This document shows, piece by piece, positions 1 through 6,106 of a stretch of 32,036 nucleotides of DNA (its first letter is position 1; every line of letters begins with the position of its first letter). The stretch is taken from assembly GCA_016192705.1 (NCBI GenBank), contig JACPTQ010000062.1, positions 1 to 32,036 of the forward strand, read 5' to 3'. The notes beneath the pieces were generated by a model. The model saw only the letters and a list, made by a program, of their open reading frames with translations. It was not told where the DNA came from and made no database searches. A program made the position numbers and the translations under genes. The stretch is from Deltaproteobacteria bacterium. Its GTDB lineage: Bacteria > Myxococcota > JACPTQ01.

Positions 1-52
1 ATTTCCGCTGCGCGGACGCTCCACTGGAGCATCCGCAGAAGGCAGCGGAAAT
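1..52. repeat. 52-nt bulged hairpin element, copy A
   Basis: Positions 1-11 pair perfectly with 42-52 (outer arm ATTTCCGCTGC). Positions 12-16 pair with 32-36 and 18-23 with 25-30, with one mismatch at 17/31 and apex CCACTGG. A one-sided bulge AGAAG lies at 37-41. A second element of exactly the same length and architecture is at 6055-6106. The element touches the window edge, so upstream context is unknown. It could be a palindromic repeat of the REP type, a small non-autonomous mobile element or a structured RNA. Confidence 0.75.
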
Positions 53-517
53 AGCCACCGGCTTGCCTGCAGACCGCCCGCAGAATAGGCGCGCCGTTGC
101 GGCGCCCCTGCCGACCCGACGCAACTGCTGGTGAACCGCTTACCGGGTAGATCTGTTTTGGCCCTTGAGGGCGGTGCGATGTGTTCACCCCACGGCTGGA
201 GACGAGCGATCGTTCAACCCCCAAACACACCGCCGCCATTTTCCGCTGAACGGTGAACTTTTGAGATGGCGGGAGGGGTTTGGGCAAGCAGAGGCTCGCA
301 TCCGCAGGGGCTGAGGTGTTGATCTGGCGTGGATTTGCCGCCACTGCGGGCCTTGATTCAACTGGCGCAGCCGTTCTTTTGATGTCAGCCCCGAGGACGT
401 CCGCGAGCCGAAGCGAGCCCAGACCCCGCCCGCTCTCTTAATGGTCTTCGCCGTTAACCGGCGAATCGGGGTCATCGCTTGCGAGGGGCGAGAGGCGCGC
501 GGTAATCGTAGAGGCTG
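53..517. other. Intergenic region without a convincing gene; possible structured RNA
   Basis: No open frame here has homology I recognise. The 7-mer GGTGAAC at 130-136 is complementary to GTTCACC at 183-189, enclosing a GCCC-TTGA-GGGC hairpin at 161-172. The same GGTGAAC recurs at 252-258, so two mutually exclusive helices are possible. The right half, about 300-475, is one copy of a diverged repeat also found at 17296-17462. A weak promoter-like pair (TTGCGA at 479-484, TAATCG at 503-508) precedes the gene at 518. I could not match the region to RNase P RNA, tmRNA or a tRNA by eye. Confidence 0.45.
300..475 (-). repeat. Diverged ~165-bp dispersed repeat, copy 1
   Basis: Read on the minus strand, this shares a colinear series of blocks with 17296-17462 on the plus strand: CCGGTTAACGGC, AAGACCA, GGGCTCGCT.CGGCTCGCGGA, CTGACAT, then 21 nt later TGAATCAAG, then a GGCAA...CCACGCC...CACCT block. 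The matching order and spacing make chance unlikely. In both places the repeat lies immediately upstream of a gene and in the same orientation relative to it. Confidence 0.6.
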
Positions 518-1357
518 ATGCGTATCGTTTCACTCCAATTTCGCGCGGCCGCGTGGTCGTTTTTTTTCGTCGTGATGGGTGTGCTCTTGGTGCGTGCGCG
601 CGGCATCGATTTTCGCGCCCTGGTTCTTGACGGCGGCACGGTCGCCCTCGCGGCGATGTCGGTCTTTTCCGCGACTGCAGCCCTCTTCATTGTTGCGGGG
701 GGGACGGCCACATTCGAACGGCTCTTAGCGTGGGGGCGTGAAAATCCACGCGTTGGCGCGGCGCGTGTCGTCGCCGGGGGTGTCTCGATTGTTTTGGGAA
801 TCGCGATTGGCGTCGCCTCATCGGCACACTTCCTAAGTCACTATCGCGCGGCGGGGTGGGCGGCGCTCGCAAACGGCGCGGTCTTCGCGGGCGGGCTTGT
901 TGTGGGCGCGGCGTTGTTCGTTCCGATTGAGTCGGTTCTTGAGCGCGCCGTTCGCCATCGGCAACCGGACTTTCGCGCGGCTTTAGCGTGGACCGCGCTC
1001 GTTGTCGCGGTTGCGAGTGTCGCGTTTCTCGAAACGATCTTCCAGCGCTCGCTGGTCCTCACGGGCCCCGTTGTTTTGATTCAGGCGGCAGCGCTGCGAT
1101 GGCCCCCGCGCGTTCCTAGGGCGGTGGATTTTTTCGTGACCCGCGCCTTCGTCGTTGGATGCGTCCTTCTTTTGTATGCGCGCGTCTTCGGTGTTCCGGC
1201 GAACAACGCGAATCCCGCGCCCCGTGCGGATTCTCGAGCGGAAGGGGTTGCGGTTCTGCCGCTGGTTGCGGATGCGGGAACAAAAGTTGATTCGGGCAAC
1301 GGCTCGGGCACACGATTGAAGGAGGGAGCGCGGGGGGTGCTGCCATCGCGACCGTAG
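518..1357 (+). CDS. Multipass inner-membrane protein of unknown function
   Basis: A 279-residue hydrophobic protein with about six predicted membrane segments. These are near residues 9-24, 42-62, 79-101, 115-139, 155-175 and 205-223. A soluble, low-complexity C-terminal tail of about 55 residues, rich in Ala, Gly and Asp, follows. I recognise no catalytic motif or named family. The ATG at 518 has only a weak GAGG at 511-514. A weak -35/-10 pair upstream would place transcription start about three nt before the ATG. The downstream NAD+ synthetase gene starts 69 nt later with its own strong ribosome-binding site. Translation is plausible from length and hydrophobic periodicity; function is unassigned. 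Confidence 0.6.
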   Translation: MRIVSLQFRAAAWSFFFVVMGVLLVRARGIDFRALVLDGGTVALAAMSVFSATAALFIVAGGTATFERLLAWGRENPRVGAARVVAGGVSIVLGIAIGVASSAHFLSHYRAAGWAALANGAVFAGGLVVGAALFVPIESVLERAVRHRQPDFRAALAWTALVVAVASVAFLETIFQRSLVLTGPVVLIQAAALRWPPRVPRAVDFFVTRAFVVGCVLLLYARVFGVPANNANPAPRADSRAEGVAVLPLVADAGTKVDSGNGSGTRLKEGARGVLPSRP

Positions 1358-1426
1358 AGGCGCGACAATCGAGTCGCATCGTGGTCGAATGGAAGATGTG
1401 TCGGACCTGAAGGAAGGGAGCTGAAC

Positions 1427-3160
1427 ATGGAGACGCTTCGGATCGCGCTTGTTCAGATGAACGCGACGGTCGGCGACCTCGCGAAAAATCGGGATCGAAT
1501 TATTCGTGGGCTCGAGGACGCACGCAAAGCCGGCGCGGCCTTCGTGGCGTTTCCAGAGCTTGCGGTGACGGGTTACCCGCCCGAGGATTTGGTGCTCTCG
1601 CCGCAGTTTGTCGCCGACAACGTCAAGGCGCTCGGCGACGTTTGCGCCGCGACGCGCGGTATCACGGCCGCGGTTGGATACGTCGATTGCGGTGACGACA
1701 TTTATAACGCCGCGGCGATTCTGCACGACGGCAAGCACGTTGCGACTTATCACAAGCGGTTTTTACCGAACTACTCTGTCTTCGACGAGGACCGGTATTT
1801 TCAAGCCGGCACCAAAGGTCTCGTCGTTGAGCTCGGTGCGGTGCGCATCGGCATCAACATCTGCGAGGACATCTGGTACCCCGGCGGTCCGACCACCGAC
1901 GAAGCGCTCGCGGGCGACGCCGACGTTATTCTCAACATCTCATCGTCGCCGTTTTGCGCCGGGAAACACGCGCAGCGCAAGAAGATGCTCGCCGTGCGCG
2001 CCGTCGACAACGTCGTGTGCGTCGCGTACCTCAACATGGTTGGTGGCCAAGACGAGCTCATTTTTGACGGTCGGAGCCTCGTCGTGAACGAGGCGGGCGA
2101 AACGCTTGCCGAGGGCCGCGCCTTCGACGAGGACCTTGTCGTTGTCGACCTCCCCATCGATTCGGTCTTTCGGCGCCGCCTCAAAGACCCGAGACGGCGC
2201 AAAGAGAAACTCCGAACGGGTGCGCATTCCGACGTCGACATTGTCCCACTCGCCGCTCCCGCATTTGCGTCCGCGCCCGCGCTCGCAACCGCTCCCGCCT
2301 ATGCGCCCGCCTCACCCGACGAAGAAGTCTACGGCGCGCTCGTTCTCGGTGTGCGCGACTACGTCCAAAAAAACAAATTTCAAAAAGTTGTCGTCGGTCT
2401 CTCGGGCGGAATCGACTCCGCGCTCACCGCCGCCATCGCTGTTGACGCGCTCGGCGCGACCAACGTGGTCGGCGTCACAATGCCATCGCGTTTTTCGTCC
2501 GACGCCACGCGTGCCGACGCCGAGGCCGTGGCCCACGCGCTCGGCGTACGCTTCCTCACGCTCCCCATCGAACCGCTCGCTGCTGCGTTCGACACCGCGC
2601 TCGCCCACGACTTTTCAGGGCTCCCGCGCGACATAACGGAAGAGAATCTTCAAGCGCGCATTCGCGGAAACCTCCTCATGGCGCTCTCGAATAAGTTCGG
2701 TTGGCTCGTCCTCTCGACCGGCAACAAGAGCGAGTTGTCGATGGGGTACTGCACGCTTTACGGCGACATGGCGGGCGGTTTCGCGATTTTGAAGGATGTT
2801 CCCAAGACGCTCGTTTATCGGTTGGCCGCGCTTCGAAACGCGCGCTCGCCCGTCATCCCCGAATCGACCATCGCGCGGCCGCCAACGGCCGAGCTCCGCG
2901 ACAACCAAAAAGACGAAGATTCGCTCCCGCCGTACGCGACGCTCGACCCCATCCTCCGGCTCTACGTCGAAGAGGATGCGAACGAGGATGAGATTGTCGC
3001 CGCCGGATTCGACCGCGCGACCGTGCGCCGCGTCTGCCGAACAGTCGACACGTCCGAGTACAAACGGCGCCAAGGCCCCGTCGGCATTAAGATTACGCCG
3101 CGCGCGTTCGGGAAGGATCGGCGATTTCCGATTACAAATGCCTACACGCGGACCGTTTGA
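1427..3160 (+). CDS. nadE: Glutamine-dependent NAD+ synthetase
   Basis: This cytoplasmic enzyme makes NAD+ from deamido-NAD+ (nicotinic acid adenine dinucleotide), ATP and glutamine, the last step of NAD biosynthesis. The 577-residue protein has both domains of the glutamine-dependent form. The N-terminal nitrilase-like glutaminase has the catalytic triad visible as Glu44 (FPELAVTGYPPEDL), Lys110 (YHKRFLPNYSVFDE) and Cys146 (INICEDIWYPGGP). The C-terminal synthetase has the PP-loop SGGIDS at 326-331, then STGNKSE and YGDMAGG. The C-terminal tail includes a motif of the KITPRAFGKDRR type. An Ala/Pro-rich linker at about 276-297 separates the domains. A strong Shine-Dalgarno (GGAAGGGAG) precedes the ATG. 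The length is typical of the two-domain bacterial family. The gene appears to be monocistronic. Confidence 0.96.
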   Translation: METLRIALVQMNATVGDLAKNRDRIIRGLEDARKAGAAFVAFPELAVTGYPPEDLVLSPQFVADNVKALGDVCAATRGITAAVGYVDCGDDIYNAAAILHDGKHVATYHKRFLPNYSVFDEDRYFQAGTKGLVVELGAVRIGINICEDIWYPGGPTTDEALAGDADVILNISSSPFCAGKHAQRKKMLAVRAVDNVVCVAYLNMVGGQDELIFDGRSLVVNEAGETLAEGRAFDEDLVVVDLPIDSVFRRRLKDPRRRKEKLRTGAHSDVDIVPLAAPAFASAPALATAPAYAPASPDEEVYGALVLGVRDYVQKNKFQKVVVGLSGGIDSALTAAIAVDALGATNVVGVTMPSRFSSDATRADAEAVAHALGVRFLTLPIEPLAAAFDTALAHDFSGLPRDITEENLQARIRGNLLMALSNKFGWLVLSTGNKSELSMGYCTLYGDMAGGFAILKDVPKTLVYRLAALRNARSPVIPESTIARPPTAELRDNQKDEDSLPPYATLDPILRLYVEEDANEDEIVAAGFDRATVRRVCRTVDTSEYKRRQGPVGIKITPRAFGKDRRFPITNAYTRTV

Positions 3161-3183
3161 CCCGATCGAATTAAAACAGCCCG

Positions 3184-3212
3184 TTCAAAGTTTCGAGGGC
3201 TTGTGACATAAT
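3184..3212 (+). promoter_or_regulatory. Putative promoter of the diguanylate cyclase gene
   Basis: TTCAAA at 3184-3189 and CATAAT at 3207-3212 are separated by 17 nt. The predicted transcription start is near 3219, giving a leader of only about seven nt before the ATG at 3226. No Shine-Dalgarno is visible. Confidence 0.45.
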
Positions 3213-3225
3213 ATTCGCGAGTCTT

Positions 3226-4173
3226 ATGGTTGCAAACGAAGGAAAAGAAAAAGGCCCGACGAAACGCATCTTGATCGTCGAAGACGACGCCGTTGTTCGG
3301 CGTTTGCTCGTGGATGCGCTGTCGCCTCAGTCGTATGAGATTGTCGAAACATCCGATGCCGTGCGCGCGCTCGCGCTCATTGAAGAAGCGACGCCCGATT
3401 GCATCATCGCCGACGTGCTTTTGCCGAGCATCGACGGTTTTCGGTTTCGCCAGATCTTGCTCGAAACGCCAACGACGCGCGACATTCCGTTCGTGTTTTT
3501 GACGTCGCTCACGACCACCGAAGACCAAGTGCGCGGGCTCGCGCTCGAGGCGGACGACTTCATCGTGAAGCCGTTTCAAGGCGACGTGCTCATCGGCAAA
3601 ATCAAGAATCTCTTGTCGAAATCGGATCGCTATCGCGAGGCGTCGTACCTCGACCCGCTGACGAGTTGTTACAACCGCCGCTTTTTCGACATGAAGCTCG
3701 ACGAAGAGATCGCCCGCGCGGCACGCTACGGCGAGTCGTTCACGCTCGTCATGATCGATATCGATCGGTTCAAGCAGGTGAACGACACGTGGGGCCACAT
3801 CGTCGGCGACCGCATCCTCGTCTACTTCGCCGATTTTACGCGCAAACGAAAGCGGTCGTGCGACTTGTTTTTCCGGTTTGGTGGCGACGAGTTTATTTTG
3901 TTGTTGCCGCGCATCGGGACGTCGGGTGGGCTCACGTGCGCCGAGCGCATTCGAACGTCGCTCGACCAGGCGGCGCGCGACACCGATCAAATCGTCAACA
4001 AGATGCCGATCACCGCGTCGGCCGGCGTCGCGTCGTTTCCGGTGAATGGCGTCGACCGCACGACGCTCGTCAAAGCCTGCGACGACGCGCTTTACCGCGC
4101 GAAGGAAGGCGGCCGAAATCGCGTCGAGTGCGCGGCGAATCTGGAGCCTGCCTCAACCGTCGCTGGCGATTAG
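3226..4173 (+). CDS. Response regulator with GGDEF output, diguanylate cyclase
   Basis: The 315-residue protein has an N-terminal receiver domain at about 13-130 and a C-terminal GGDEF domain at about 140-305. In the receiver, the acidic pocket (VEDD, residues 18-21), phospho-acceptor Asp63, Thr93 and Lys115 are all present. In the output domain the intact GGDEF motif is at 219-223. An RxxD inhibitory site (RSCD, 210-213) lies exactly five residues before it. The protein is therefore predicted to make cyclic di-GMP on phosphorylation and to be feedback-inhibited by product. It resembles PleD/WspR-type regulators but has one receiver. No kinase gene is adjacent, so the cognate kinase is unknown. 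The ATG at 3226 has no clear ribosome-binding site. Confidence 0.93.
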   Translation: MVANEGKEKGPTKRILIVEDDAVVRRLLVDALSPQSYEIVETSDAVRALALIEEATPDCIIADVLLPSIDGFRFRQILLETPTTRDIPFVFLTSLTTTEDQVRGLALEADDFIVKPFQGDVLIGKIKNLLSKSDRYREASYLDPLTSCYNRRFFDMKLDEEIARAARYGESFTLVMIDIDRFKQVNDTWGHIVGDRILVYFADFTRKRKRSCDLFFRFGGDEFILLLPRIGTSGGLTCAERIRTSLDQAARDTDQIVNKMPITASAGVASFPVNGVDRTTLVKACDDALYRAKEGGRNRVECAANLEPASTVAGD

Positions 4174-4222
4174 CGCCTCATTCAACTAGGATACCGCCCC
4201 GGCTTTCGTAAGGGGTGTGCTT

Positions 4223-6019
4223 ATGATGACAAGATTGACCGTTGTGTTTGTGATGACCTGCGTGCTCTTGGCCTGTAAGACCGGTGGAGACAAGGCGACG
4301 GCGGATCCGCGAAGGGAAGCGGCGCGTACGGGTGATCCGGCCGCGGTGCCACTTCGAGGAGCTGTTCCACCGGGTGCGGTCGCGGCGGCTCCGCAACCGG
4401 GCTCGCCGAGCGCGGCGCCGGGTGCAGCGGCCGTGGGAACGTCAGCCCCTGCTGTGGGCACGGCGACGACGGCCGACGAGCAGGAACCGAACGACGACGT
4501 TAAAACCGCGACGCCACTCGCGCTCGAAACGGCGATGCGCGCAACGCTCAAGGCTGCACCGGGCGCGAAAAAGAGCGACGAGGATTGGTTCAAGGTGACA
4601 ACGGCGGATGAGAAGGGCATCTTGAGCGTCGAGGTGACGGGCGTCCCAGGGATGAAATTGGGCGTCGAGCTTTTCGATGCGCAGAAGCGACTCATCGCAA
4701 GCGCCGTTGGGAGTGTCGGCGAGGCGGTCGTGTTTCCGAATCTCGGCGTGAAAAAGGGAGATTCGTATGTACGCGTGCGCGAGCGGACGCGCGGCAAGGC
4801 GGCCGTCGAGAGCGACACGCCGTACACCATCACCGCGACAACCGCGACACGCCTCGAAACGGAGGAGGTTGAGCCGAACAACCGCGCGGTTGATGCGACG
4901 CCGCTCGAAGAGGGGAAGACGATGAGCGGGTTCATGTCGCCGCGTGGGGACGAGGACTGGTGGAAAATTGTTTTGCCGGAGTCGAAGGGCGATAAGGAGA
5001 AAGGCGACAAGGGCGCGGACAAAGCCGGCGCGAGCTTTTTGCGCGTGAGCGTGAAGGGCGTTGCGACGGGCGACGGGCGGGTCGCGATCGTCGACTCGAT
5101 CGGCGCGAAGGTGACGGAACAGGCGCTTAAAGCGGGCGGCGAAGTGGTTTTTCCGAACGTCGGCATTAAGGAAGGGTCGAAGCAGATGCACGTCGTCGTA
5201 AAGACGGTCGGACTCGGGAGCGCGAAAGAGCGTTACGAGGTGACCGCGAAGGTCGAGAAATCGACGGGCGATATGGAGATCGAGCCGAACGACAGCGACA
5301 AACACGCGACGCCGCTCACGGTCGGGAAGCCGATTCGCGGGTTCATGGCGTCGGCGAAAGATGTCGATTGGTATTCGTTCAAGGTGACGGAGCCGTCGGT
5401 TGCGCGAATTGAGCTCGGCGGCGTCGAGCGCGTTGACCATGCGCTTGAGGTCGTTGGGGCGCGGGGCGAAAAGCTCGCGCGAAGCGATGATGGGCGGGCC
5501 AAGGAATCGGAGACGGTGACAAACGTTTTTCTGCCGGTCGGCGAGGCGTTCGTGCGCGTGTCGTCGGCGCGCAAGGGGGGCGAGAACATCGACGAGACGT
5601 ACGAGCTTGCGGTGACGCTTCGCGCGGCGCCGGACGACGAAGAGCGAGAGCCGAACAATGGAGACAAGCAGGCGAACGAGCTGTCTTCGGGGAAGACGCT
5701 TTTGGGGTACATCCACCCGAAAAAGGATCGCGATTTTTACCAGTTCGTGCTCCGCGAGGAGAAGAAGGTCGTTGTGAGCGTCATAGGGATTGCGAAGGTT
5801 GGGCTTGCCGTTTCGCTGGTCGACGAGAAGGGGGCGATCGTCGCGGACGGGCGTGGGCCAGCGGGCGGAGATGTCGCGTTCGATAAGAAGATTCCGGCTG
5901 GGACGTATCGCGTCGTTGTCGAACAAAACCTGCAACCGGCAAAAGGGAAAAAGGGAAAACCACGCACCGAATCAAATCCGCGTGACCCGTATAAGCTGAC
6001 GCTGAAGGTTGAATTGTGA
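4223..6019 (+). CDS. Lipoprotein with four PPC-like domains
   Basis: The 598-residue protein starts with a lipoprotein signal whose lipobox reads LLAC, with the lipidated Cys just before KTGGDK. An Ala/Pro/Gly-rich linker of about 60 residues follows. Four repeats of about 110-130 residues come next. Each opens with an acidic EPN motif (EQEPNDD, EVEPNNR, EIEPNDS, EREPNNG) and carries a DEDW/DVDW/DRDF turn followed by a beta-strand. This is the signature of bacterial pre-peptidase C-terminal (PPC) domains, normally found as accessory domains of secreted proteases. No protease domain is present, so this looks like a stand-alone surface or periplasmic binding protein. ATG 4223 is favoured over an upstream GTG because AAGGGG (4210-4215) lies seven nt before it. 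An alternative ATG is at 4226. Confidence 0.85.
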   Translation: MMTRLTVVFVMTCVLLACKTGGDKATADPRREAARTGDPAAVPLRGAVPPGAVAAAPQPGSPSAAPGAAAVGTSAPAVGTATTADEQEPNDDVKTATPLALETAMRATLKAAPGAKKSDEDWFKVTTADEKGILSVEVTGVPGMKLGVELFDAQKRLIASAVGSVGEAVVFPNLGVKKGDSYVRVRERTRGKAAVESDTPYTITATTATRLETEEVEPNNRAVDATPLEEGKTMSGFMSPRGDEDWWKIVLPESKGDKEKGDKGADKAGASFLRVSVKGVATGDGRVAIVDSIGAKVTEQALKAGGEVVFPNVGIKEGSKQMHVVVKTVGLGSAKERYEVTAKVEKSTGDMEIEPNDSDKHATPLTVGKPIRGFMASAKDVDWYSFKVTEPSVARIELGGVERVDHALEVVGARGEKLARSDDGRAKESETVTNVFLPVGEAFVRVSSARKGGENIDETYELAVTLRAAPDDEEREPNNGDKQANELSSGKTLLGYIHPKKDRDFYQFVLREEKKVVVSVIGIAKVGLAVSLVDEKGAIVADGRGPAGGDVAFDKKIPAGTYRVVVEQNLQPAKGKKGKPRTESNPRDPYKLTLKVEL

Positions 6020-6023
6020 TTGT

Positions 6024-6054
6024 GGGGTTCGCGCTCTGTAAACAGGCGCTCCCC
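6024..6054 (+). terminator. Hairpin after the PPC lipoprotein gene
   Basis: GGGG (6024-6027) pairs with CCCC (6051-6054), GCGC (6031-6034) with GCGC (6046-6049) and CTG with CAG in the centre. It begins five nt after the stop codon of the upstream gene. There is no T tract, so intrinsic termination is uncertain; it may be a 3'-end processing or rho-associated structure. The 52-nt hairpin copy B abuts it directly. Confidence 0.4.
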
Positions 6055-6106
6055 ATTTCCGACGCGCGCTCAAGCCACTGGCTTTCGCGCAGATAGCGGC
6101 GGAAAT
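6055..6106. repeat. 52-nt bulged hairpin element, copy B
   Basis: The length and layout match copy A at 1-52: outer arms ATTTCCG/CGGAAAT, apical CCACTGG and a one-sided AGATA bulge. The inner stem pairs GCGC with GCGC and AAGCCA with TGGCTT. Compared with copy A, four stem pairs change on both sides while pairing is kept. Its last T is the first base of the proposed TTG start of the next gene. Confidence 0.75.

Follow-up and report, generated by a model that had tools for sequence, protein, structure and literature searches.

A high-copy two-hairpin palindrome in a Deltaproteobacteria genome, probably a mobile DNA element, at hairpin apices, tRNA gene ends and inside protein genes

The window analyzed here is a stretch of 32,036 nt that makes up one whole contig from the draft genome of a Deltaproteobacteria bacterium (Myxococcota). 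Two copies, A and B, of a short palindromic element lie within its first 6,106 nt (Table 1). Because the contig opens at the second hairpin of copy A, the first hairpin of this copy has been cut off. Copy A interrupts a host element that itself resides in one end of a long interspersed repeat. The same arrangement is found complete at a second locus in the genome (L153), and the corresponding empty site exists at a third (L141).

Table 1. Elements and neighboring features in the first part of the window
Feature	Position	Strand	Remark
Copy A, second hairpin of an A-type element	1..52	+	matches model positions 34-85, 5' end cut
Host element, 3' half	53..86	+	interrupted at hairpin apex by copy A (AGCCACCGGCTTGCC...GCAGAAT)
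Long non-coding interspersed repeat copy	87..473 (end ~473)	.	host element in one of its ends
TGA stop codon of ORF 4217-6019	6017..6019	+	copy B starts 2 nt downstream
Copy B, first hairpin	6022..6054	+	opens with tag GTGG (family tag GTNG)
Copy B, second hairpin	6055..6106	+	CCACTGG apex, 5-nt bulge, 3' end ..GGAAAT

An earlier note on this sequence had described two 52-nt hairpins (1-52 and 6055-6106) with an invariant CCACTGG apex, a 5-nt one-sided bulge (AGAAG in the first, AGATA in the second) and compensatory changes in four stem pairs. Both hairpins are real. They align without gaps, and the claimed fold is reproduced in each, with folding energies of -33.6 kcal/mol (z -6.6) and -23.2 kcal/mol (z -3.1), respectively. 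The four double changes (pairs 15-33, 18-30, 19-29 and 20-28) are confirmed, and a fifth that had been overlooked is present at pair 9-44 (T-A / C-G). At pair 8-45, the second copy has A.G. A pattern built from these same two copies has zero chance matches in 100 shuffles, and an origin by chance or artefact is ruled out by the shuffles, the MAFFT-alignment covariation and the genome-wide copy number described below. The structure and coordinates thus stand, but the unit as described is incomplete. DNA-level searching with copy B's flanks as the query shows that conservation runs from 6022 to 6106, and the 52 nt are the second hairpin of an element of ~85 nt. The added part, GTGGGGTTCGCGCTCTGTAAACAGGCGCTCCCC, is the first hairpin and has covariation of its own.

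At its 5' end, the complete unit opens with a leader of roughly 4-7 nt, in many cases ending in AAAG, and it continues with a GTNG tag, hairpin 1 (~30 nt) and then hairpin 2 (~52 nt) up to a terminal GAAAT. The two hairpins are unlike each other and are arranged in tandem. Throughout the family, hairpin 2 has a 5-nt one-sided bulge and an apex that is mostly CCACTGG. The tag fits GTNG in 49 of about 62 full-length free copies, most often as GTGG (24 copies), followed by GTAG (12), GTCG (8) and GTTG (5).

Covariation extends across both hairpins. In a MAFFT alignment of 28 copies, which was not fitted to the structure, 17 of the 33 pairs have changes on both sides, for a total of 85 cells. None of 500 shuffles reaches this level, which is also far above that of slid controls. 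The corresponding values are 28 of 33 pairs and 769 cells (again 0 of 500 shuffles) in an alignment of 150 rows, 138 of them distinct, that was fitted to the model and includes some rows read on the opposite strand. G-U pairs account for 40 of about 3,680 paired cells (1.1%), compared to 5.6% in the acceptor and T stems of tRNAs from the same genome. This scarcity points to a DNA palindrome, since an RNA under selection is expected to show more G-U intermediates. It is compatible with selection for hairpin DNA and also with repair templated by the palindrome.

With a shortened E-value calibration, a covariance model trained on 28 copies yields at least 143 matches in the element's own genome (150 candidates scored), a draft of 5.21 Mb in 88 contigs that is 96.65% complete. 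The 0.99 Mb fetched around these matches contains 142 non-overlapping copies. According to gene calls and copy classes from a home-made caller, 117 of these are intergenic, 20 lie inside ORFs and five overlap ORFs. It had been proposed in the earlier note that many covarying copies would support a mobile palindrome and a few syntenic copies an RNA; the genome-wide search finds the former, which favors mobility. The same model has zero matches in 145 other genomes of the phylum, the nearest of which share only the phylum with this bacterium, and the element is absent from 28 same-phylum genomes in a separate search and from IMG/VR. A 20-base pattern, which covers one hairpin-1 class only, matches 18 loci in ~85,000 species genomes, a scan that possibly excludes the own genome or very near ones. 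None of these loci has a second hairpin after the match, and they were therefore set aside as chance. As far as searched, restriction of the element to its own lineage is likely, though not proven.

Approximately 31 genuine pairs of filled and empty sites could be compared within this one genome. Four further apparent empty sites (L187, L210, L211 and L229) were dropped as matches to the 3' terminus of the element itself. The insertion pattern is constant: the leader and element take the place of 0-2 nt, and there is no target duplication. The leader brought in at insertion is 4-7 nt long, for example, CAAAG, CCGGT or AGAGG. Empty sites share no common motif or target tetranucleotide, and a general target-site duplication can be rejected. 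Seven insertions are located in the hairpin apex of another copy, one of them in a hairpin 1 apex (L173:5119). In one such case, GCGCGCTC[A]AGCCACTGG has become GCGCGCTC{CCGGT}[element]AGCCACTGG. In most of the remaining pairs, the site is one of two equivalent positions within the termini of the long repeat; these pairs may, for this reason, represent few original events that were copied along with it. A further short repeat, of type CTCTGTGCCTCTGTGGTTACTCC, likewise serves as the insertion site at L182 and L217, which are the empty counterparts of L156 and L198.

Direct repeats of at least 5 nt flank 11 of 62 copies, a count that 27 of 200 shuffles equal or exceed. Repeats of at least 7 nt flank three copies versus 0.53 expected (reached by 3 of 200 shuffles), and these long repeats go unexplained by duplication-free insertion. 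Strand relative to GC skew is not biased (32 of 58 copies), which rules out a lagging-strand orientation bias and argues against a mechanism that uses single-stranded DNA at the replication fork, where a bias might be predicted. Two A-type-like copies (L212:5312-5396 and L228:5510-5594) have similar flanks on both sides (CCCGGC... and TCCTCGA...), perhaps within related coding sequences.

The long repeat constitutes a non-coding family of ~320-420 bp (window 87-473; L072, L253-L259 and others). It is present in 58 of the 109 searched loci at an identity of roughly 73% or more. Its inverted terminal motifs, CCTGCGGA(C/G)GCG, hold up to two inserted 85-nt elements, and in some cases none. Many contigs of the assembly end in copies of the long repeat or of the element.

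The least expected result concerns tRNA genes, of which 40 were examined (41 tRNA matches). In 15 cases, a reverse-complemented element starts 0-1 nt past the last tRNA base, so that the element's 3' end always faces the tRNA. These copies have no T-run 3' of the hairpin and are thus not classical terminators. Their exact placement may mean that the element prefers such targets or that it was recruited to 3' processing, and the data are compatible with both. A tRNA cluster at L184 (C41:76.3-80 kb) has several copies between its genes, including one that lies at the tRNA-Trp 5' end. At L163:823-910, a copy adjoins an apparent 5' half of tRNA-Leu, and a complete tRNA match lies ~60 nt away.

Protein genes are also affected. 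At least 13 ORFs read open through the element with more than 30 residues on either side, and the copies inside coding ORFs are mostly antisense. Alignment to the Thermus enzyme places ~29 extra residues of leucyl-tRNA synthetase at the element, and an additional stretch in prolyl-tRNA synthetase is likewise located there. Pfam domains span the element in a CusB-like protein, a phosphatidylserine decarboxylase and a polysaccharide synthesis protein. Outside of genes, seven of 44 intergenic free copies have their start at most 5 nt from a stop codon on the same strand (0.79 expected). Of the 83 intergenic copies that are flanked by called genes on either side, 25 sit between divergent ones.

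The earlier note had suggested selection on the folded form, as in REP/REPIN elements mobilized by a TnpA_REP (RAYT) protein, or else a functional RNA. Such a transposase is not supported here: neither Y1_Tnp (PF01797) nor the REP tyrosine transposase model (NF047646) has a match in the draft assembly, while both find matches in E. coli, used as a control. Mobilization by IS110 or a reverse transcriptase was discarded in the same way, with zero matches in the assembly for the C-terminal IS110 domain (Transposase_20) or RVT_1, both of which are found in control genomes. Predicted proteins near the copies include no multi-copy transposase-like family. Repeats lie at the ends of many contigs and completeness stands at 96.65%, so that a mobilizer gene may be missing from the assembly.

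The element is probably a high-copy, non-autonomous mobile palindrome made of DNA, similar in behavior to REPs and Rickettsia palindromic elements (RPEs) and, as far as searched, lineage-restricted. The mobile palindrome envisaged earlier is strongly supported in this form by ~140 dispersed copies, covariation in two hairpins and precise filled and empty sites; a RAYT and an inverted REPIN layout are not. The element would probably move as a folded single strand, with the tag, bulge and stem as putative recognition features, and this strand may join into single-stranded or extruded hairpin DNA. The enzyme would be supplied in trans and could be lost, unassembled or of unrecognized type. More tentatively, the palindrome may be independent of Y1/RAYT proteins and inserted by an unrecognized enzyme at DNA hairpin apices and exact tRNA 3' ends. 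It would have become the 3' neighbor of more than one-third of the tRNA genes and have been absorbed in-frame into aminoacyl-tRNA synthetases. Several observations count against the mobile element as preferred here. The searches of the draft assembly for a transposase gene were negative, copies show no strand bias relative to GC skew, and empty sites share no target tetranucleotide. Transposition alone does not explain the exact tRNA 3' placement, and duplication-free insertion does not account for the long flanking repeats of three copies. As the evidence comes from a single genome, current mobility is unproven.

If the family were instead a functional RNA, it would be a transcribed 3' end or processing signal that was copied to many genes, in its strongest form a tRNA gene 3' trailer that was also recruited to the ends of other genes. 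The 15 tRNA junctions, the seven copies close to stop codons and the strong covariation are compatible with this idea, and the tRNA copies leave room for a secondary role. However, so many covarying, dispersed copies are not what the RNA alternative in the earlier note foresaw. G-U pairs are scarce in the stems, copies occupy coding ORFs (mostly in antisense) and each other's hairpins, almost a third of the intergenic copies assessed lie between divergent genes, and the tRNA copies lack the T-run of a terminator. In addition, only tRNAs reached the gathering score when 59 kb were searched with Rfam, leaving the element unmatched. An RNA function as the primary explanation is therefore improbable.

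True RAYT-driven REPs whose RAYT gene fell into draft breaks at repeats would be a narrower form of the mobile palindrome. The GTNG tag, the one-sided bulge and the mix of intergenic and in-gene copies resemble GTAG REPs (PMC3733652, PMC8266576), and the many contigs ending in these repeats provide places where such a gene could be lost. Set against this are the lack of PF01797 or NF047646 matches in the assembly, the unlike hairpins in tandem rather than an inverted REP pair, and a tag that is GTAG in only 12 of the full-length free copies. This reading is possible but doubtful. Spread might also have occurred with no dedicated enzyme, if replication slippage or template switching, together with recombination between repeats, both dispersed and homogenized the palindromes. 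Palindrome-templated repair would yield double changes that are exclusively Watson-Crick, and tandem remnants occur at L210, L211 and L229. Such processes do not account for unit boundaries that stay constant from one unrelated site to the next, in-frame gene insertions and tRNA ends among them, and this route is very unlikely.

Several known systems share parts of this behavior. MITEs derived from IS200/IS605 have a hairpin near each end and insert without target duplication. The element described here resembles them in its hairpins and in the absence of target-site duplication from filled and empty pairs (the three copies with long flanking repeats apart), but it has no Y1 match and no fixed target tetra- or pentanucleotide at its left end. 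With GTAG REPs and REPINs it shares short, high-copy palindromes, a 5' tag, bulged stems and copies at gene ends and within ORFs, and it is a mainly intergenic palindrome (117 of 142 copies), as REPs are. It differs in that its tag is degenerate, its hairpins are unlike and in tandem instead of forming two inverted REPs, and the draft assembly has no match to a RAYT, the cognate Y1 HUH gene. It therefore works like a REP yet lacks the defining RAYT and inverted-pair layout, and it is not filed as one.

REPs are found next to gene ends as well as within genes, tRNA synthetase genes among them (PMC3733652), the bulge and tag matter for TnpA_REP (PMC8266576), and REPINs exhibit compensatory stem changes (PMC3116915). 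Abutment to tRNA 3' ends and nesting in apices are absent from the available portions of these three descriptions. CGTC REPs are reported to lack a dedicated transposase (PMC3733652). RPEs insert in-frame in unrelated protein genes (PMC10969869, citing Ogata 2000 and 2002), as does the present element in at least 13 ORFs, among them LeuRS and ProRS. This likeness is one of behavior. RPEs belong to another organism and are ~150 bp long, whereas the element here has two hairpins and ~85 nt.

For the question of how palindromic repeats without a RAYT spread, the ~31 site pairs allow insertion junctions to be read directly. The nested insertions mark the hairpin apex as a preferred target. The element's exact junction with the 3' ends of 15 tRNA genes hints at a new kind of target preference or, alternatively, at a mobile palindrome recruited to tRNA 3' processing, and both ideas are testable. 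This genome also provides essential enzymes with natural inserts of about 28-30 residues. An in-frame copy, in the sense orientation, is present in an ORF that fuses transaldolase and phosphoglucose isomerase (L173:12520-15225).
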